32,221 nucleotides of DNA, taken from positions 1 through 32,221 of the forward strand of contig CACJRJ010000016.1 in NCBI GenBank assembly GCA_902595725.1. Direction: 5' to 3'. The notes beneath the pieces are model-generated. The model did not search any database and was not told the DNA's origin. It worked only from the letters and a program-made list of their open reading frames with translations. This document shows, piece by piece, positions 135 to 14,201 of this stretch; the stretch's first letter is position 1; every line of letters starts with the position of its first letter. This DNA comes from an uncultured Pelagibacteraceae bacterium (GTDB lineage Bacteria > Pseudomonadota > Alphaproteobacteria > Pelagibacterales > Pelagibacteraceae). A program made the position numbers and the translations under genes.

Positions 135-1358
135 TTAGTCATCAACGCCTGTTCTATTAGCATTATGTCTAAGTTTCCATATATTATTCTTTTTTATCCA
201 AATATGAGGAGATCTAAATTTATCACACCAGGAATTAAATTCTTTTTCGGTTATTTCTAAATAATTCATTATTTCATTAAAATATTTATTTGGAAACTCT
301 CCATCAAATCTATCTACTAAAGCGAGCGCCTCTTTTCTATCAATATGATTATTCCTTAGTTCCTGAGAAGCTTCATAAGTTGCTCTTCCAATGCCAAATT
401 TTATATATGTAGTATACCAATGAAGATCATCAACTTTATCGTCTATACTTACATACTTGCTGAATGATCCTTGTGTTCTATAAGGTCTGGCCTTAAAACC
501 AGTGTTTTCGATAGCATAATAATATGCTTCTTGTGGAATCCACTTTATAAAATATCCGAGATAATGTATTTGTAATCCTTTGAGCAATTTTTCCTTTCTT
601 TCTGGAAGAAAATTAACAAAATCCTTATATTTAAAATTATAATTCTTAATTAAATCCTTAATTTTTACTCCCGCTAAATATAACTCATTTAAATTTTTAT
701 ATATATACATTGACTGATCTGTTAATGAAGAGCTACTTTCGGCTAAAGACTCATTATGATCAGCATTATTTTCTCCATAAAATATTAATTTTATATTAAA
801 TTTTGTTGCAATTTTCGGAGCTAAATTCTTCTGCCCTAATATAAAGTTTTGAAATGGATGTAAAAGGTTTTTTATACTCATTCTAGTTAATCTTCTCATT
901 ACTTCTCCATTAGGAGCAAAGGTAAGATTATCAAATCCACCAATATTTATAAAATTCATTAAATTTTCTCTTCCATAGTCTGTATACATAATCGGGGGCC
1001 ATGTAATACATAATGGGTTCATTCCATATTTGTATTTTAGCAAATGTGCTTGCATCGCACTATCTTTACCCCCGCTTCCTGGTACTAAACAATCATAATT
1101 ATCATTATTAGATCTATATTTTTTTAAAAGTTGTAATAACTCTAATTCTCTTTTCTTCCAATCAATTTTATCTCTTCTATTATGAACTTTGCACGGATCA
1201 CAGATTCCATCTCTCCCAATATTCAAGTATTTTGCACCGCGTCTATTTTTAACATGTTTAAACTCTGGAATCGACCTAGGTACCTGATTTGATACAACGC
1301 ATTTTTTACAAAAGACAATTTTTTTTGGTAAATTAAATAAAACTTTATTTTTTTTCAT
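135..1358 (-). CDS. wbpG: N-acetyl sugar amidotransferase, WbpG/PseA-like
   Basis: The 407-residue protein has the marks of the N-acetyl sugar amidotransferase family (WbpG of Pseudomonas, PseA of Campylobacter). These ATP-dependent enzymes turn an acetamido group of a surface sugar into an acetamidino group, using ammonia from a HisH/HisF-like glutaminase pair. Two cysteine pairs near the N-terminus (FCKKC and CDPC) look like a metal site. The PP-loop that binds ATP is visible as PGSGGKDSAMQ at about residues 93-103. The hisF- and hisH-like genes lie directly upstream, with a 5-base gap to hisF, which matches the known three-gene arrangement. The substrate here is inferred to be a legionaminic-type sugar from the neighbouring legB, legG and legI genes. 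The length is normal for the family, and the ATG start is supported by the tight spacing. Confidence 0.88.
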   Translation of the reverse strand: MKKNKVLFNLPKKIVFCKKCVVSNQVPRSIPEFKHVKNRRGAKYLNIGRDGICDPCKVHNRRDKIDWKKRELELLQLLKKYRSNNDNYDCLVPGSGGKDSAMQAHLLKYKYGMNPLCITWPPIMYTDYGRENLMNFINIGGFDNLTFAPNGEVMRRLTRMSIKNLLHPFQNFILGQKNLAPKIATKFNIKLIFYGENNADHNESLAESSSSLTDQSMYIYKNLNELYLAGVKIKDLIKNYNFKYKDFVNFLPERKEKLLKGLQIHYLGYFIKWIPQEAYYYAIENTGFKARPYRTQGSFSKYVSIDDKVDDLHWYTTYIKFGIGRATYEASQELRNNHIDRKEALALVDRFDGEFPNKYFNEIMNYLEITEKEFNSWCDKFRSPHIWIKKNNIWKLRHNANRTGVDD

Positions 1359-1363
1359 TTATT

Positions 1364-2221
1364 TTAAATTTCTCTTGAAAATAATTTAGATTTTTTCATT
1401 TTATTTTTAATTTGCAACAAATCATATGCGCCAAAATTTTTAAATTTTTTTTTAGAATTTAAGAAAGTTAAATTTCCATTTAAATTGTGGTTTTTTATAA
1501 ATTTTTCGTCTCGATTTGCAACTATATTATAATGAAGCATTGAGGAAATTGATATTCCTGATACCTCTGTTTTTTTAAATATATTAATTATATCATCAAT
1601 TTCAGATGCTCCACCGTGTGCAACTATTGGAATTTTAGTTTTTTTTGAAATTTTTTCTGTAAACTCAAAATCTAATCCCTCACCAGTTCCTTCTCTGTCT
1701 ATTGAAGTAATTATAATCTCTCCAGCATGTCTACTCTCTGCTTCTAATGCCCAGTTAAGTGCATCTTTATCAGTTTTTTCTCTACCATTATCAGTAAAAA
1801 CAAAATAATTTCCATTCCTATCCTTTGTTACTTCAATAGCAACAACTATAGTTGAAGATCCAAATATTCTTGCTGCTTCGGTTATAAACTTAGGATCTTT
1901 AACTGCTGCAGTATTTATAATTATTTTATCTGCTCCTGCTTTAAGAATTTTTTTTATATCATCAACACTTCTTATTCCACCGCCAACAATTAAAGGAATA
2001 AAAATTTTTTTATTTATTTTGCTAATTTGATCTAAAAGTGAATTTCTCTTATACAAACTGGCTACTACATCTTGATATAAAATCTCATCAGCGCCTTTTT
2101 TATAATATTCAAAAGCGAACTCTTCAGGGTTTCCTAGAACTCTTAGGCCCTCTAAATGAATGCCTTTAACTAAATTTTCCCCTTTGATGTCTAAACGAGG
2201 TATAATTCTAAAATTTCTCAT
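1364..2221 (-). CDS. hisF: HisF-like ammonia-accepting partner of the amidotransferase
   Basis: A 285-residue TIM-barrel protein of the HisF family, about 30 residues longer than the usual histidine enzyme, with the extra length at the C-terminus. The N-terminal strand reads RIIPRLDIKGENLVKG, so the catalytic Asp11 is kept, and the GGGIRS phosphate-binding loop is at residues 80-85. The position matching the second catalytic aspartate of HisF (Asp130, usually AID) is Glu130 here (AIE). The ATG overlaps the hisH stop by 4 bases (ATGA), and the amidotransferase gene follows after 5 bases. Its place in a sugar cluster, rather than with hisA and hisB, says it channels ammonia to the WbpG-like enzyme. 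A role in histidine synthesis cannot be excluded from this window, but is less likely. Confidence 0.87.
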   Translation of the reverse strand: MRNFRIIPRLDIKGENLVKGIHLEGLRVLGNPEEFAFEYYKKGADEILYQDVVASLYKRNSLLDQISKINKKIFIPLIVGGGIRSVDDIKKILKAGADKIIINTAAVKDPKFITEAARIFGSSTIVVAIEVTKDRNGNYFVFTDNGREKTDKDALNWALEAESRHAGEIIITSIDREGTGEGLDFEFTEKISKKTKIPIVAHGGASEIDDIINIFKKTEVSGISISSMLHYNIVANRDEKFIKNHNLNGNLTFLNSKKKFKNFGAYDLLQIKNKMKKSKLFSREI

Positions 2222-2844
2222 TTTATTTTTAAAAAATTTTCAATAAGTTTTATTCCAAATTTACCACTTTTTTCTGGATGAAACTGGGATCCAAAAACAT
2301 TACCCTTTCTCAAAAAAGCTATAAATGGTTTTTCATACTTGCAATAAATAAAATAAACATCATTATAATTTTTTTTAAAGTCAATTTTGTATGAATGAAC
2401 AAAATAAAAAGAGCTTTTTTTAGGAATTTTTTTCCATATATAATGATTATCATGTTGAATTTTATTAAATCCAATGTGTGGAATTTTTAATTTTTTTGAT
2501 CTTATGTGAGAACATTTACCTTTAATTATGCCTAATCCATTAGATTTACCATGTTCTTCACTACTCTCAAACATTAGTTGCATGCCTAAGCAAATTCCAA
2601 AAAATTTTCCATTTGTATCAATAAAATTTTTTATATTTTTTTTTAGATTTTTTTTTTTTATTATTTTTGATGCCTCTTTAAACGAACCAATTCCAGGCAA
2701 TATAACATGGCTAAACTTATCTAATTGAGAATAATCATTTATAATTTCAACTTCTCTTTTTAAATGTGTAATTAAATTAGTTATAGATCCTAAATTACTT
2801 ATACCTAAATTTATTATTCCTACTTTTTTTGAAAAACTATTCAT
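2218..2844 (-). CDS. hisH: HisH-like glutamine amidotransferase subunit
   Basis: A 208-residue class I glutamine amidotransferase of the HisH family. It releases ammonia from glutamine for its HisF-like partner. The nucleophile elbow is intact (FGICLGMQLMF), and the His-Glu pair of the catalytic triad is seen near the C-terminus (GSQFHPEKSG). The conserved PGIGSFKEA segment lies near residues 50-58. Length is normal. The stop overlaps the start of the hisF-like gene by 4 bases, so the two are probably translated together. Upstream, the NeuB/LegI gene ends 7 bases before this ATG. The neighbours point to sugar amidination rather than histidine synthesis. Confidence 0.88.
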   Translation of the reverse strand: MNSFSKKVGIINLGISNLGSITNLITHLKREVEIINDYSQLDKFSHVILPGIGSFKEASKIIKKKNLKKNIKNFIDTNGKFFGICLGMQLMFESSEEHGKSNGLGIIKGKCSHIRSKKLKIPHIGFNKIQHDNHYIWKKIPKKSSFYFVHSYKIDFKKNYNDVYFIYCKYEKPFIAFLRKGNVFGSQFHPEKSGKFGIKLIENFLKIK

Positions 2845-2851
2845 AAAAAAA

Positions 2852-3919
2852 TTATATTAAATCGTCTGTTTGATAATTTTTTTTCGCCCTTTTTCCCAAA
2901 TAATTAACTATTTTTGATGCAGGCAGACCATATCCTGGTCTTTTAGCGGTTAAATTTAATAATGTAAACTTTTCTCCTTTTAATATATTTTTTTTTGCCA
3001 CAAGACTTTTTCTAACAACTTTAACGTTTTTAATTTCACATTGCTCAAGTTTCTTTACTCCGTTTCCTTTCATATTTTCTAATCTCCTAATATCGTTTAC
3101 CATATGTTTAAATTCGGTTGGAGATAAGGATGCTAAATGATCAGGTCCCTTCATCTTTTTATCTAGAGTAAAATGCTTTTCTATAACTAATGCACCTCTT
3201 GAGACTGCAAATAGTGGCGCTGCAATACCCAAAGTATGATCTGAGTAACCCACTTCAAGTTTAAATTGATTTTTTAAATTAGTTATACATTCTAAGTTTG
3301 CAAATTTATCTTTTACTGGATAATCAGTAATACAATGAAGAAGAATAATTTTTGATTTAATTTTTTTGTGGTTTCTTTGATTTAAAATTTTTACATTATT
3401 ATTTTTTACACTATAAACTTTTCTTTTAAAAATAGTATTTAATGCATATGAAATATCTTTAAAATCACTCATGCCAGTTGAAAGTAGTATTTTATGTTTT
3501 TTTATATTAAGACCATTTAAAATAAGATAATTATTTATTTCTCCAGATGGTATTTTTATAGTATTAATTTTTAAATCTTTATATAGAAAATCGATGCTAT
3601 ATTCATCAAAAACTGATGAAAGAAAATCTATTTTTTCTTTTTTACATAATTTAATAAGCTCAAAATAATTTTTTTTTTTTAATTGTAATTTTTTTAGCAT
3701 TAAAAACTGAGAATTATTATTTTTTGTATTTTTTATTTGATATGGAGCTTTTTTAGCAGATTTAGTTACTAAATTTTCAGCTGAAAAATTCTGAAATTTA
3801 ATTGCATTTGCACCACATTTTTTTGCTGAAAGTATTAGCTTTCTAGCTAGCCGCATATCTCCATTGTGATTTACACCCGCCTCTGCAATTATATAAGTTT
3901 GATTCTTATTTAAGATCAT
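2852..3919 (-). CDS. legI: NeuB/LegI family nonulosonic acid synthase
   Basis: A 355-residue protein of the NeuB family. It condenses phosphoenolpyruvate with a six-carbon sugar to make a nine-carbon nonulosonic acid. The N-terminal barrel opens with YIIAEAGVNHNGD and continues with IKFQNF, KIPSGE, LLSTGMS and GYSDHTLG, all typical of the family. The last 60 residues or so form the SAF (antifreeze-like) domain, seen as RKSLVAKKNILKGE followed by KRPGYGLP. Neighbouring legB and legG-like genes favour N,N'-diacetyllegionaminate synthase (LegI) over sialic acid synthase, but the sequence alone does not settle the substrate. The start overlaps the end of the epimerase gene by 14 bases. Confidence 0.88.
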   Translation of the reverse strand: MILNKNQTYIIAEAGVNHNGDMRLARKLILSAKKCGANAIKFQNFSAENLVTKSAKKAPYQIKNTKNNNSQFLMLKKLQLKKKNYFELIKLCKKEKIDFLSSVFDEYSIDFLYKDLKINTIKIPSGEINNYLILNGLNIKKHKILLSTGMSDFKDISYALNTIFKRKVYSVKNNNVKILNQRNHKKIKSKIILLHCITDYPVKDKFANLECITNLKNQFKLEVGYSDHTLGIAAPLFAVSRGALVIEKHFTLDKKMKGPDHLASLSPTEFKHMVNDIRRLENMKGNGVKKLEQCEIKNVKVVRKSLVAKKNILKGEKFTLLNLTAKRPGYGLPASKIVNYLGKRAKKNYQTDDLI

Positions 3920-5051
3920 AAAATTCTTTTTTAACTAAATTTTTTAATTTAATTTTCTTTAAAATATTAACTATTTTATTAGATGCTCCATATTTTCCGT
4001 ATGGATTAATAGTTTTTTTAACGATCTTTAGATATTTTAAATCATAAATTTTTTTAATTGCGGCATCTATTTTTTTAATATCACAGTCCACATTTATTAC
4101 ACTACTTGAAGCTATTCTTCCTTTTTGTCTTTCTCCAATATCAACTGTAGGTATTTTAAATGAAGGTACCTCTAATAGTCCACTTGATGAATTGCCTATT
4201 ACGCCATCTACAACTTTAAGTAATGAAAAGTAATTTTGTTGACCTAAAGATTTTATAAAATAAGAAAATTTTTTTTTTTTTATAAATCTATTTATGCTTC
4301 TTATAACCTCAAGGTTCTCTATTTCAGCACCTGGCATTGTAAAAATAAGTGTTGTATCATTAATTTTATTTAATGAGGTAAGTAACTTTTTTATTTGTAC
4401 CTTTGCAGAGTTTTTATTCATTGTTTCTGGATGAAAATTTATAATTAAATTTTTTTTTTTAAAATTTATATTTAATTTTTTTTCTAGTCTTTGCTTAGGA
4501 ACAATTTTATTATAATGAATACTATCAACTCCCATTCCACCCACTATAAATACACTACTGGGGTTTTCTCCTAATTGAACAACCCTTCTCTTATAAACTT
4601 TATTTGAAACAAAGTGTATTTGAGAAAGCTTAGTAATTGAATGCCTAAAAGCGTCATCTAATACACCATAAGTGAGTTCTCCACCATGAATATGCGCTAA
4701 TGGAATTCTATTGATGTACGCTGCTAAAGATGAGCCTAAAATTTCATATCTGTCTCCCAAAACTATAACGATATCTGGTTTTATCTTCTTTAAAACTTTA
4801 GAAGTTTTTACCAAAGTACTAGATAAAATTTTTGATATACTATTTGCACTTTTTGTATTTATTTGACTTGATATTTTATAATCAATTTTTATTTTGCTAT
4901 CATAAATTTCTTTATATGTGTTTCCATAATAATTAGAAAAATGAGTTCCAGAGCCAACTACTTTGCAATTAAAATTTTTCTTTAACTTTATTATTAAGTT
5001 TTTTAATAAACCAAAATCAGCTCTTGTACTTGTAATTACTGCAATTTTCAT
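3906..5051 (-). CDS. legG: Hydrolysing UDP/GDP-sugar 2-epimerase, NeuC/LegG-like
   Basis: A 381-residue member of the hydrolysing UDP-GlcNAc 2-epimerase family. These enzymes remove the nucleotide and invert C2 to give the ManNAc-like sugar used by the NeuB-type synthase. Family motifs are clear: an N-terminal TSTRADFGLL segment, VLGDRYEILGS, HIHGGELTYG with a following DDAFRHSITK, and the C-terminal GNSSSGLLEVPSF. The length matches NeuC/LegG rather than the non-hydrolysing WecB. It sits directly before the synthase gene (14-base overlap) and its start overlaps the deacetylase stop by 4 bases. Assignment to LegG rather than NeuC rests on the legB gene in the same run. Confidence 0.87.
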   Translation of the reverse strand: MKIAVITSTRADFGLLKNLIIKLKKNFNCKVVGSGTHFSNYYGNTYKEIYDSKIKIDYKISSQINTKSANSISKILSSTLVKTSKVLKKIKPDIVIVLGDRYEILGSSLAAYINRIPLAHIHGGELTYGVLDDAFRHSITKLSQIHFVSNKVYKRRVVQLGENPSSVFIVGGMGVDSIHYNKIVPKQRLEKKLNINFKKKNLIINFHPETMNKNSAKVQIKKLLTSLNKINDTTLIFTMPGAEIENLEVIRSINRFIKKKKFSYFIKSLGQQNYFSLLKVVDGVIGNSSSGLLEVPSFKIPTVDIGERQKGRIASSSVINVDCDIKKIDAAIKKIYDLKYLKIVKKTINPYGKYGASNKIVNILKKIKLKNLVKKEFYDLK

Positions 5052-5710
5052 TTTTTTTTTTCAAATAAAAGCTGAAATGATTCTGCATAGCGGAATCCAC
5101 TTTCGCTTCCACGTAAAATTGCCAAGGATTTTATTGATGATATACTCCTTGGAAACGGATGTTTTTTAATCTCTGAATTATAAATCTTGATAGTTTTTAA
5201 TTTATTATTTAAATTTTTTGAAATATCAAAATATACATTGGGACTAAATTTTTGCTTTTTTACAAAATTTTGATTTGTTTCAGATAATGTTTCATAAAGA
5301 TAACATTTATTTATAAAAGAATATCTAAAAGATTTTAATATGTGATTTAAAGCATAAGTAGAAAAAAAATGGTCTGAATGTGCATCATGAAGATATGGAG
5401 CAAATATTGTGTCAGGTTTAAATTTTTTTATATTACTTGACATTTTAGATATAAGTTCTTTTAAATTTCCTTTATTGAGGAATGACGCATCAAATTCAAG
5501 ATTAACTAATGAATTTATTTGCAAAGATTTTGAAACTTTATTTATTTCTTTATCTCTTTTTTTAATTTGTTTTTCATTATATCCACTTTTTTTTGACATT
5601 TTAGTAATTATCATCCAACATGATTTTTTATTTCTGAATTTATGCATAACTCCGCCACATCCTAATATTTCATCATCTGGATGAGGTGCAATAAACATTA
5701 TTTTTTTCAT
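5048..5710 (-). CDS. PIG-L (LmbE) family N-deacetylase
   Basis: A 220-residue protein of the PIG-L/LmbE zinc deacetylase family. The N-terminal APHPDDEILGCGG motif (residues 8-20) carries the metal-binding His and Asp and the catalytic Asp, and a second metal motif, HDAHSDH, ends at about residue 114. Family members remove N-acetyl groups from sugars. In this cluster it could free an amino group on the nonulosonic acid or a precursor so that another group, such as formyl, can be added by the next enzyme. That role is an inference from gene order: the gene overlaps both the formyltransferase-like gene and the epimerase gene by 4 bases each. Length is normal and no signal peptide is seen, so it should act in the cytoplasm. 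Confidence 0.83.
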   Translation of the reverse strand: MKKIMFIAPHPDDEILGCGGVMHKFRNKKSCWMIITKMSKKSGYNEKQIKKRDKEINKVSKSLQINSLVNLEFDASFLNKGNLKELISKMSSNIKKFKPDTIFAPYLHDAHSDHFFSTYALNHILKSFRYSFINKCYLYETLSETNQNFVKKQKFSPNVYFDISKNLNNKLKTIKIYNSEIKKHPFPRSISSIKSLAILRGSESGFRYAESFQLLFEKKK

Positions 5711-6633
5711 AGATAATTTGTTTTTTTTAAATTTATTTTCTTATTGGTTTTTAATATTCTAATAATTCCTGATCCACATCTTACATCAAAAAATGAGTTA
5801 TTTTTTAAAATTATATTTCCTGGCACAAAATTCTCATACTTTCTAGGAGTTTTTTTACTTATTAAATTTGATTTCATAACCTTTATTTCTTTACCTTTAA
5901 AAAAAAAATGAGCATATGGATATGGCTTATCTAAAGCCTTTATAAGGTTGCTTATAGAAAAAGCTGTCATTCTCCAATCAATTTTCCCATCACTATAGTA
6001 TCTTCTTCTCCAATAATTGGATTTACTATTAGTATTAATAATTCTAATCTTATTCTTCTTAAAGTTTCTTATTATCTGCTCTAATTGAATTATTGCTGCT
6101 CTCATTATTTTTTTGTAAAGACTTGCTGCATTATCTTCATTACTTATTACTACCTGTTTTTGGCTAATTACTTTGCCACTGTCTACTTTTTCATTTTTGA
6201 TTAAAAAAAAACTTGAAGCAGTTCTTTTTAAGCCTAGTGCAAGAGACCATATAATTGGGTGTTTTCCTCTATTTTTAGGTAATTTTGTGGGATGAAAACC
6301 AACAGTTGCAATTGATGGTAAATTAATTATTTTTTTTTTTAATATTTCTGACCATCCAAAACAAAATATTAGATTGGGAGATTTATTTTTTATCCAAGTA
6401 AAAACTGATGGAGAATTTATTTTTTTTATATATTTAAAATCAATTTTTTTATTTTTAATATTTTTTTTTAGGTCTACAAAATCAGAATTTTTGCTATTTT
6501 TTTTTGTGCAAACTCCAACTATATTCAATTTTAAACTTATACATTTTTTTAAAAGTAGTCTTGAGCTTTCTGCTGATCCAATAAATAAAATTCTTAAATT
6601 TTTTTTATCTATCGATCTGCTAAATTTTTTCAT
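5707..6633 (-). CDS. Formyltransferase-family protein, probable sugar N-formyltransferase
   Basis: A 308-residue protein with the fold of methionyl-tRNA and sugar N-formyltransferases. The N-terminal Rossmann half leads to a FHPTKLPKNRG loop (from residue 113) and a VDSGKVISQ segment, so the catalytic His (114) and Asp (151) are present. The Asn that normally stands two residues before the His is Gly112 here. The C-terminal half (ALDKPYPYAHFFF) resembles the second domain of such enzymes. It starts directly after legB ends and overlaps the deacetylase by 4 bases, so it most likely acts on an amino group of the nonulosonic acid or its precursor, with formyl-tetrahydrofolate as donor. It is not the housekeeping Fmt, judging by context and sequence. 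Activity is uncertain because of the missing Asn. Confidence 0.75.
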   Translation of the reverse strand: MKKFSRSIDKKNLRILFIGSAESSRLLLKKCISLKLNIVGVCTKKNSKNSDFVDLKKNIKNKKIDFKYIKKINSPSVFTWIKNKSPNLIFCFGWSEILKKKIINLPSIATVGFHPTKLPKNRGKHPIIWSLALGLKRTASSFFLIKNEKVDSGKVISQKQVVISNEDNAASLYKKIMRAAIIQLEQIIRNFKKNKIRIINTNSKSNYWRRRYYSDGKIDWRMTAFSISNLIKALDKPYPYAHFFFKGKEIKVMKSNLISKKTPRKYENFVPGNIILKNNSFFDVRCGSGIIRILKTNKKINLKKTNYL

Positions 6634-7635
6634 CTATACGTTATATTGATCTGGATTATATTTAGATAAATTTTTATTTTCTTTAAACCATTGAATTGTT
6701 TTTTTTAAACCTTCATAGAAACCTTTTTCCTTTGTAAATTTTGGCTTCCAACTTAAAATTTTTTTAGCTTTAAGATTATTAGATAACAATTGATTAACTT
6801 CGCTTTTTTTTGGTCTTAGCCTTTTTTTATCTAATTCGACTTCTATTTTAGTTTTTAGTATTCTACAGATTAAGTCTAGTGTTTCTTTAATTGTAAAACT
6901 TGTTCCAGTTCCTAAATTTATAACTTCTCCTATACTTTTTTTATTTCCTATTAATTTAATATAACCTTCTACTGTATCTTCTACATAAGTAAAATCTCTT
7001 GATGAATGTAAATTTCCAAGTTTAATTTTTTTTTTACCATTTATGATTTGATTGATTATAGCAGGGATGGCTGCTCTTTGTGACTGCCTTGGTCCAAACG
7101 TATTAAAAGGTCTTAAAACAGTTACGGGCAAATTAAAACTTCTATAATAAGATAAACATAAATGGTCAGCAGCAATCTTGGTAGCTGCATAAGGAGATTG
7201 GGCATTCATCGGATGATTTTCATCAATAGGAATATATTGAGCTGAGCCATATACCTCGCTGGTAGATGTGTTTACGACTAATTCCACATCATTTTCTTTT
7301 GATGCCTCCAAAATATTATATGTTCCATTTATATTTGTATCTATATAACTTTTGGGAGATTGATAAGAATAAGGAATTGAAATTAAAGCTGCTAAATGAA
7401 AAATAACATCTGTTTTTTTTGTTTTTTTTTTAATTAGATTAAAATCATTAACATCACCTAAAATTACCTCAATGTTATCTTTTATATTCTTATCAAAAGT
7501 ATCCATCCATCCCCAGGAACTATCTATATTGTATGGTGATAGAACTTTAACTTTGTGTCCAAGAGTTACGCACCTTTCCACTAAATGAGAGCCTATAAAG
7601 CCACCGCCGCCAGTTATTAATATATTTTTTTTCAT
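6634..7635 (-). CDS. legB: LegB-like NAD-dependent nucleotide-sugar 4,6-dehydratase
   Basis: A 333-residue extended short-chain dehydrogenase. The NAD-binding GGGGFIGSH is at residues 9-17, the TSEVYG motif at 125-130, and the catalytic Tyr149 and Lys153 are in SPYAATK. The segment SPYNIDSSWGWMD near residue 33 is characteristic of LegB, which opens the legionaminic acid pathway by making the 4-keto-6-deoxy sugar from GDP- (or UDP-) GlcNAc. It is the first gene of the eight-gene minus-strand run, preceded by a 174-base intergenic region shared with a divergent gene. The next enzyme of the standard pathway, the PLP aminotransferase LegC, does not follow; the formyltransferase-like gene does. 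Confidence 0.86.
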   Translation of the reverse strand: MKKNILITGGGGFIGSHLVERCVTLGHKVKVLSPYNIDSSWGWMDTFDKNIKDNIEVILGDVNDFNLIKKKTKKTDVIFHLAALISIPYSYQSPKSYIDTNINGTYNILEASKENDVELVVNTSTSEVYGSAQYIPIDENHPMNAQSPYAATKIAADHLCLSYYRSFNLPVTVLRPFNTFGPRQSQRAAIPAIINQIINGKKKIKLGNLHSSRDFTYVEDTVEGYIKLIGNKKSIGEVINLGTGTSFTIKETLDLICRILKTKIEVELDKKRLRPKKSEVNQLLSNNLKAKKILSWKPKFTKEKGFYEGLKKTIQWFKENKNLSKYNPDQYNV

Positions 7636-7809: not shown

Positions 7810-8597
7810 ATGAAAATAAAAAATCTTATAAATCATCCATTTGAGTCAGCAAAGCTTATTTCAAAGGTATTTATTGATAAATTATTTTATAAATTCATCG
7901 AAAATCAATCTAAAAAATTTTTCGAATATAATGATTTAGATAAATATTTTATACTAGGCAATCATGAAGAACTTAAAATAGAATATATTGATATAAAATA
8001 TTTATATAACCAAGTAATAAAGAGAAATCCAAAATGCGTTTTAGAATTTGGTTCAGGTTTTTCTACAATAGCAATAGCTTTAGCTCTAAAAAAAATGATG
8101 AACTTTATAAAACAGGTGGAAAACTTTTTTCAGTAGATGGAAATGAGGAATGGATAAAAAACACTAGAAATAAAATTAACAAGGATTTAACCAAATACAT
8201 AAAGTTTATATTTGATAAGCCATATATTTCAACGCACAAAGGTCAACTAGTCTCATATCATAAAAATCTTCCTGATATTTCTCCTAATTTCATTTATCTT
8301 GATGGCCCAGCACCTGATGATGTGATTGGAGATATCAATGGATTATCGTTTAATTCAAAAATAATTAAAGATGATGATGAAAATATTTTTTTTAAAAAAA
8401 ATTCAAGAAGGATAGTAGCAGCAGATGTGCTTTTATATGAAAGTACTGCCCCATCAGATTTTTTTATTTTAGTTGACAGGAGATATTCTAATTCAAATTT
8501 TTTAGAAAAAAATTTAATTTATGATTATAAAATTATAAAAAGTATAATTTTTGGTGGAAAAGTGACTTTTCAAAAAAAATATCAACCTTATCCTTGA
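7810..8597 (+). pseudogene. Methyltransferase-like gene interrupted by a frame change in an A8 tract
   Basis: Two overlapping frames together encode one protein of about 262 residues. The first frame runs from the ATG at 7810 and ends at 8136. The second frame, open from before 8034, ends at 8597. Homologous content passes from the first to the second at a run of eight A at 8088-8095, where a -1 shift (one A re-read or missing) joins them. The joined protein has VLEFGSGFST (residues 77-86), which resembles the SAM-binding motif I of class I methyltransferases, then FSVDGNEEW and FIYLDGP, which fit later strands of that fold. The target is unknown; a surface polysaccharide role is suggested only by location. 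It may be a true pseudogene, a sequencing or assembly error, or a gene expressed by slippage. Confidence 0.7.

Positions 8598-9562: not shown

Positions 9563-9571
<9 letters not shown>
9551..9571 (-). other. 3' arm of the 23S rRNA processing stem
   Basis: These 21 bases are complementary to 12309-12329 with a single mismatch, so the two ends of the 23S precursor can form a long stem of the kind cut by RNase III. The arm reaches to 17 bases from the stop codon of the convergent gene, and no 5S gene or separate terminator fits between. Confidence 0.75.
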
Positions 9572-12308
<2,737 letters not shown>

Positions 12309-12315
<7 letters not shown>

Positions 12316-12329: not shown

Positions 12330-12359
12330 AATTCTGTGTTGAATCAAATTTTTTTTAAA

Positions 12360-12403
12360 TGTTCATCTATTCGAACATTCATGATTGTTCATCTATTCGA
12401 ACA
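12360..12403 (-). repeat. Two copies of an 18-base hairpin unit in the 16S-23S spacer
   Basis: TGTTCATCTATTCGAACA occurs at 12360-12377 and again at 12386-12403, 26 bases apart. Each unit is itself an inverted repeat (TGTTC/GAACA), and the second extends to seven pairs (ATTGTTC/GAACAAT). They lie between tRNA-Ala and the 23S 5' stem. They may be recognition sites for RNA processing or a recent local duplication. Confidence 0.7.
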
Positions 12404-12461
12404 ATCGGATATAGATATTGATAATATAAAAATATTTACAAATTAAATAACTAAGTGTTTC

Positions 12462-12537
12462 TGGTGGAGGATAGCGGGATCGAACCGCTGACCTCCTGAA
12501 TGCAAATCAGGCGCTCTCCCAGCTGAGCTAATCCCCC
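12462..12537 (-). tRNA. tRNA-Ala (anticodon TGC)
   Basis: The minus strand folds as a 76-base tRNA. The acceptor arm GGGGGAT pairs with ATCCTCC (one G-U), the D arm reads TAGCTCAGCTGGGAGAGC, the anticodon TGC is at 12504-12502, and the T arm contains GGTTCGATCC. The CCA end is encoded. Its place in the 16S-23S spacer after tRNA-Ile is the standard arrangement. Confidence 0.96.
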
Positions 12538-12545
12538 TTTTAAAT

Positions 12546-12622
12546 TGGTGGGCCGAGAAAGACTCGAACTTTCGACCCCACCCTTATCAAGGGTGTGCTC
12601 TAACCAACTGAGCTACCGGCCC
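12546..12622 (-). tRNA. tRNA-Ile (anticodon GAT)
   Basis: A 77-base tRNA on the minus strand. The acceptor arm GGGCCGG pairs with TCGGCCC, the D arm reads TAGCTCAGTTGGTTAGAGC, the anticodon GAT is at 12588-12586 within CCCTTGATAAGGG, and the T arm contains AGTTCGAGTCT. The CCA end is encoded. Only 8 bases separate it from tRNA-Ala. Confidence 0.96.
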
Positions 12623-12649
12623 TAATGCAGAAAAGAGAAACACTTTAAA

Positions 12650-12672
12650 TTAAGAAGAGAAATGAGGACGGT
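12650..12672 (-). other. 3' arm of the 16S rRNA processing stem
   Basis: These 23 bases pair with 14290-14312 with two mismatched positions, bringing the flanks of 16S together as a likely RNase III substrate. Confidence 0.75.
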
Positions 12673-12696
12673 CAACATTAACCTGTTAAATATTTA

Positions 12697-12718
12697 GATT
12701 AAGAAAAAATCCTTAATC
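12697..12718 (-). other. Small hairpin just after the 16S 3' end
   Basis: GATTAAG at 12697-12703 pairs perfectly with CTTAATC at 12712-12718 across an 8-base loop, 8 bases beyond the 16S end. It may help 3' maturation. Confidence 0.4.
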
Positions 12719-12726
12719 ATCCTTAG

Positions 12727-14201
<1,475 letters not shown>

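Follow-up and report, generated by a model that had tools for sequence, protein, structure and literature searches.

What surface sugar would be made by a cluster in which legionaminic acid (Leg)-type genes are joined by an amidotransferase trio, a PIG-L family deacetylase and a formyltransferase-like protein (FT), and what would the last two contribute to it? The cluster lies in a 32,221-nt stretch of Pelagibacteraceae DNA (the window), which corresponds to positions 1–32221 of contig C16 in a genome assembly of 1.08 Mb, 43 contigs and 84% completeness.

Organization and setting of the cluster

The cluster contains eight minus-strand open reading frames spanning window positions 135–7635, all open and nearly contiguous, with the transcription order LegB, FT, PIG-L, LegG, LegI, HisH, HisF/WbuZ, WbuX/WbpG. 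Intergenic distances are short or negative (LegB/FT 0 bp, FT/PIG-L −4 bp, PIG-L/LegG −4 bp, LegG/LegI −14 bp, LegI/HisH +7 bp, HisH/HisF −4 bp, HisF/WbpG +5 bp). Families were assigned using Pfam and NCBIfam bit scores relative to the family cutoffs, and with these assignments and intact key motifs the eight-gene cluster described in an earlier note on this DNA stands. The contig starts 135 bp past WbpG, on its downstream side, and the cluster is thus cut and incomplete as seen.

The cluster adjoins a 23S rRNA gene (9563–12315, minus strand; identified with Rfam), and no 5S gene is present in the window. Region HVR2 of 'Ca. Pelagibacter' HTCC1062 is a 48 kb segment between the 23S and 5S genes that is rich in surface-polysaccharide genes (PMC2217521), and the cluster sits at the HVR2 position of SAR11 genomes. 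Two overlapping reading frames at 7810–8597 resemble one protein whose frame shifts at eight consecutive A residues near 8090; this may be a broken gene or a sequencing error.

Nonulosonic acid core genes

The LegB-like NDP-GlcNAc 4,6-dehydratase (333 aa; 6634–7635, minus strand) has its best match among 34 families to LegB, although slightly below the cutoff (TIGR04180, 447 bits; cutoff 475), and is ~47–57% identical to the LegB proteins of other FT-positive clusters. The NeuC/LegG-type hydrolysing 2-epimerase (381 aa; 3906–5051, minus strand; TIGR03568, 413.8 bits, cutoff 235.9) and the NeuB/LegI-type nonulosonic acid synthase (355 aa; 2852–3919, minus strand; TIGR03569, 408.9 bits, cutoff 400) both score above their cutoffs, and the Leg-type core proposed in the earlier note is supported. 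LegI scores 234.7 bits against the PseI family, short of the cutoff of 340, and its KIPSGE motif contains the Gly of Neu and Leg synthases rather than the Phe of Pse synthases (alignment to 1xuu and 8h2c). These features together place the sugar, as predicted from the proteins, in the Neu/Leg class. Among the specificity positions described for the NeuB family, NmNeuB-184 is reportedly Tyr in Leg synthases (PMC7371886); LegI has Thr at the aligned position, which gives no clear class by this rule, and neuraminic-like or modified substrates may therefore also be used.

No LegC, LegH or LegF gene is present within the window, where the contig end cuts the cluster. In the 84%-complete assembly, LegC has no match over the cutoff, the only match of any kind being to an RfbH-like aminotransferase (107 bits; cutoff 420), and LegH-type N-acetyltransferases likewise have no match above cutoff. 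Contig C7 was rejected as the missing half, as the aminotransferase at its end is a better match to RfbH (269 bits) than to LegC (135 bits). A 7.4 kb contig of the same genome, C29, contains a PtmE-like nucleotidyltransferase gene side by side with a gene for a CMP-sugar synthetase-like protein, a candidate for the LegF role that is a below-cutoff, PseF-like match (147 bits; cutoff 205.7), and these two genes may be the missing flank of the cluster. A NodU/CmcH-type carbamoyltransferase gene (L116, 4768–6468 in G000:C29) is located beside them.

The amidotransferase trio

The last three genes encode a HisH-type glutaminase (208 aa; 2218–2844, minus strand; TIGR01855, 205 bits, cutoff 105) with intact GICLG (containing the catalytic Cys) and FHPE motifs, a WbuZ/HisF2-type cyclase-like subunit (285 aa; 1364–2221, minus strand) and a WbuX/WbpG/PseA-type N-acetyl sugar amidotransferase (407 aa; 135–1358, minus strand; TIGR03573, 315 bits, cutoff 203) with an intact PP-loop, SGGKDS. 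The cyclase-like subunit scores under the WbuZ cutoff (TIGR03572, 258.6 bits; cutoff 300), which is still the best of all families (HisF, 235.7 bits). A true HisF is encoded elsewhere in the genome (contig C25, 351 bits), showing the window HisF to be a paralogue and a member of a sugar amidotransferase trio.

The earlier note had proposed an amidinated sugar. The trio genes are co-located, but their action on the same sugar is a proposal: across 21 FT loci (see below), the trio directly adjoins Leg genes in three, is nearby in four more, and is absent from most clusters with FT and PIG-L. Amidination of the same nonulosonic sugar is plausible.

A formyltransferase-like protein with Gly in place of the catalytic Asn

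FT (308 aa; 5707–6633, minus strand) contains the Pfam Formyl_trans_N and C domains, and its AF2 model (pLDDT 85) has Fmt and ArnA as top Foldseek matches, with a TM score of about 0.75 to ArnA. The Asn-x-His...Asp catalytic set is altered, with Gly112 where the catalytic Asn is expected and His114 and Asp151 retained; the latter two are invariant in an alignment of nine SAR11 members. FT belongs to a 'G-x-H-P' clade (24 rows, support 98/98), in which Gly is present in every member showing the motif. Fmt, ArnA and GART carry the Asn at this position, where it is crucial (PMC4388273), and it is also retained in the Fmt of the same genome and in a formyltransferase of another SAR11 locus (L095, below). 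These comparisons point to a clade in which the Asn-His-Asp rule of the enzyme family does not hold.

Plasmid-borne FT relatives (Sinorhizobium pSymB, 31%) share the Gly motif, and neither PIG-L nor Leg genes are listed in their vicinity. One clade member in a polysaccharide region of Sinorhizobium meliloti pSymB (L103, 9004–9948) is annotated as a methionyl-tRNA formyltransferase, which is probably a misannotation.

Conserved pairing of FT and PIG-L

The gene overlapping FT by 4 bp encodes a PIG-L family N-deacetylase (220 aa; 5048–5710, minus strand; Pfam PIG-L, 70.8 bits) with the zinc-site motifs HPDDE and HSDH (HxDH) intact. PIG-L enzymes of established function N-deacetylate GlcNAc units at C2. 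Relatives in the PDB include diacetylchitobiose deacetylase and BshB-type deacetylases, and the HPDDE and HxDH metal site is shared with these, with MshB and with GlcNAc-PI de-N-acetylase; the window protein differs from them in its translational coupling to FT within a nonulosonic acid cluster, and its substrate is a prediction.

Among 397 genomes searched within the same family, 10 contain close FT relatives (three of 140 among the better genomes), and profile searches across the class and phylum yielded further loci plus one 469-kb viral contig; a contig scan with the single FT sequence gave three distant relatives only, and phage records contain distant FT matches only. The resulting set comprises 21 loci, window included, two of which end at a contig edge with no readable sequence after FT. 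PIG-L is directly 3′ of FT in all 19 loci with readable flanks, whose sources are SAR11 and other Alphaproteobacteria, further classes of Pseudomonadota and the viral contig. Among 18 pairs measured, 16 share an overlap of exactly 4 bp, and LegG flanks the pair at 18 of 20 loci, including clusters lacking the trio. The viral contig (IMGVR_UViG_3300028840_006907, 469,617 bp; L050, 6297–14187) contains the pair together with LegB-like, LegC-like, NeuB-like and PseG-like genes.

Two complete clusters from other Alphaproteobacteria (L056 and L057) share the order PtmE-LegB-LegC-LegH-LegI-LegG-FT-PIG-L, and a LegH-type acetyltransferase is retained in ten FT-positive loci; the window, L024 and L026 have no LegH nearby. 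The gene combination of the window recurs, both in a different family (L058; HisH-HisF-WbpG-LegI-LegG-FT-PIG-L-LegH-LegC) and in SAR11 (L023; LegI-HisF-HisH-WbpG-LegG-FT-PIG-L-PtmE). At one locus (L059) the pair is present without Leg genes nearby.

In the converse search with a PIG-L profile, 14 SAR11 genomes scored at least 270 bits. FT is beside PIG-L in nine of these, and in the other five a 614–618-aa asparagine-synthetase-like protein occupies the FT slot within a different nonulosonic acid gene order. Such a pattern would suit a plug-in arrangement, with PIG-L exposing an amine and the neighbouring enzyme deciding which group is attached. A second recurrent cluster is found in five SAR11 genomes (L094–L098), composed of NeuB, SDR, aminotransferase, WbqC-family, NeuC-like, asparagine-synthetase-like and PIG-L genes, often with PtmE and the amidotransferase trio nearby. 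L095 also encodes an N-x-H formyltransferase of another clade (12340–13197) between LegC and LegI, the usual LegH slot, which is a candidate 7-N-formyltransferase.

The suggestion that the deacetylase and formyltransferase form a unit is supported by their pairing at every readable locus and by the existence of 5-N-formyl-legionaminic acid as a known sugar (PMC6137143). The conserved coupling of the pair is the strongest evidence, and the product stays a prediction.

Predicted pathway and alternatives

On balance we favour an HVR2 pathway to a CMP-legionaminic-type sugar with an added PIG-L/FT acyl exchange at C5, the trio probably amidinating a remaining N-acyl group. We infer its substrates, modified positions, step order and product from sequence. 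LegB, LegG and LegI, with LegC, LegH and LegF encoded outside the window, would build the nine-carbon skeleton. PIG-L would remove the N-acetyl group at C2 of a GlcNAc-derived intermediate, a position that becomes C5 in the finished sugar. FT would formylate the freed amine using 10-formyl-tetrahydrofolate as donor, while the LegH-type N-acetyl group would be retained at C7, giving a predicted 5-N-formyl-7-N-acetyl-legionaminic acid. The exchange could precede the LegG step, follow it or come only after LegI, all of which are compatible with the sequence. HisH, HisF and WbpG would then probably amidinate one remaining N-acyl group. The C7 N-acetyl is the likeliest target; the other would be the N-formyl, which would become a formamidine. 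Alternatively, the trio may act on another sugar. Placement of the exchange at C5 is suggested by the complete clusters: acylation of the C4 amine by FT would make the LegH that they keep redundant, so FT needs a different amine, and with the C2 specificity of characterized PIG-L enzymes the simplest reading is a C2 acetyl swapped for formyl. Counting against this pathway are its incompleteness, the Gly in place of Asn in FT, the Thr at position 184 of LegI, the absence of the trio from most clusters and the L059 pair lacking Leg genes.

The ten loci retaining LegH also weigh against FT acting in place of LegH by formylating the C4 amine (C7), as in the known Pse5Ac7Fo, with PIG-L separately freeing C5, possibly for a group made by the trio. 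Nonulosonic acids carrying a 7-formamido group do occur, for instance in Pseudoalteromonas distincta (PMC3210612), the three loci with no LegH nearby and the N-x-H enzyme in the LegH slot of L095 are consistent with the substitution, but FT is almost everywhere paired with PIG-L and not located in the LegC-LegI slot, and we consider this reading unlikely. The position of the pair bears similarly on a division of labour in which the trio makes ordinary Leg5Am7Ac, in the style of Campylobacter and Legionella, and FT and PIG-L act on another sugar of the glycan. Acetamidino derivatives of Leg are well documented (PMC7371886, PMC3210612), a glycan may hold several sugars, and L059 has the pair on its own; the adjacency of LegG, even in clusters lacking the trio, argues against this arrangement and makes it distinctly improbable.

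The remaining alternative concerns FT itself, which may no longer formylate sugars and could instead hydrolyse 10-formyl-THF, serve as a scaffold or work as a transferase on another acceptor. The invariant Gly would suit such a change, and the related 10-formyl-THF dehydrogenase (FDH) has Ile at the Asn position in a domain that hydrolyses 10-formyl-THF (PMC4388273). However, FDH, though lacking the Asn, still passes formyl to ACP (PMC6802093), and loss of the Asn is thus by itself no proof of inactivity and need not mean loss of function, the amino-sugar activity of FT being predicted. His114 and Asp151 are invariant, and conservation of the FT sequence across many lineages indicates an active site that is under selection and not decaying; repurposing of FT accordingly seems very unlikely.

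A broader version of the favoured C5 exchange, which we put forward tentatively, is that FT and PIG-L constitute a horizontally shared cassette replacing N-acetyl with N-formyl at C5 by means of an Asn-free clade, and that in combination with the trio it could yield a sugar with both formyl and amidine groups, possibly a formamidine. No description of a sugar bearing both groups was found in the open-access literature searched.

Relationship to known systems and implications

A close parallel by description is Halorubrum sp. PV6. Mass spectrometry identified 5-N-formyl-legionaminic acid on its glycoproteins, and a putative FT gene (about 950 bp) lies directly next to LegG, downstream of it in the same transcript (PMC6137143). 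Both PV6 and the window combine Leg genes with a gene for a putative FT. The PV6 sugar differs in being part of an archaeal N-glycan, the deacetylase and trio are not described there, and the likeness rests on gene order and product as described. Beyond the Halorubrum paper, nothing was found in the open-access literature searched on a deacetylase-formyltransferase pair in nonulosonic acid clusters.

The Leg5Am7Ac pathways of Campylobacter, Legionella and Aliivibrio share the LegB-LegG-LegI core and acetamidino-forming genes, and relatives of the window cluster have a PtmE-type nucleotidyltransferase, as in the GDP-linked Campylobacter route; to our knowledge these pathways contain no FT–PIG-L acyl-exchange module. 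The sugar N-formyltransferases ArnA, WbkC, FdtF and WlaRD have the FT fold and a sugar-gene context in common with it, but their substrates are 3- or 4-amino nucleotide sugars and they have no partner deacetylase, and ArnA has the catalytic Asn (PMC4388273) where the FT clade has Gly.

N-formyl nonulosonic acids are chemically known, and FT and PIG-L provide a concrete gene pair for them, including a putative acyl-exchange deacetylase of a kind that was not found in the open-access literature searched. For SAR11, among the most abundant bacteria in the sea and with tiny genomes, the cluster is a case of elaborate surface-sugar chemistry kept in a hypervariable region.
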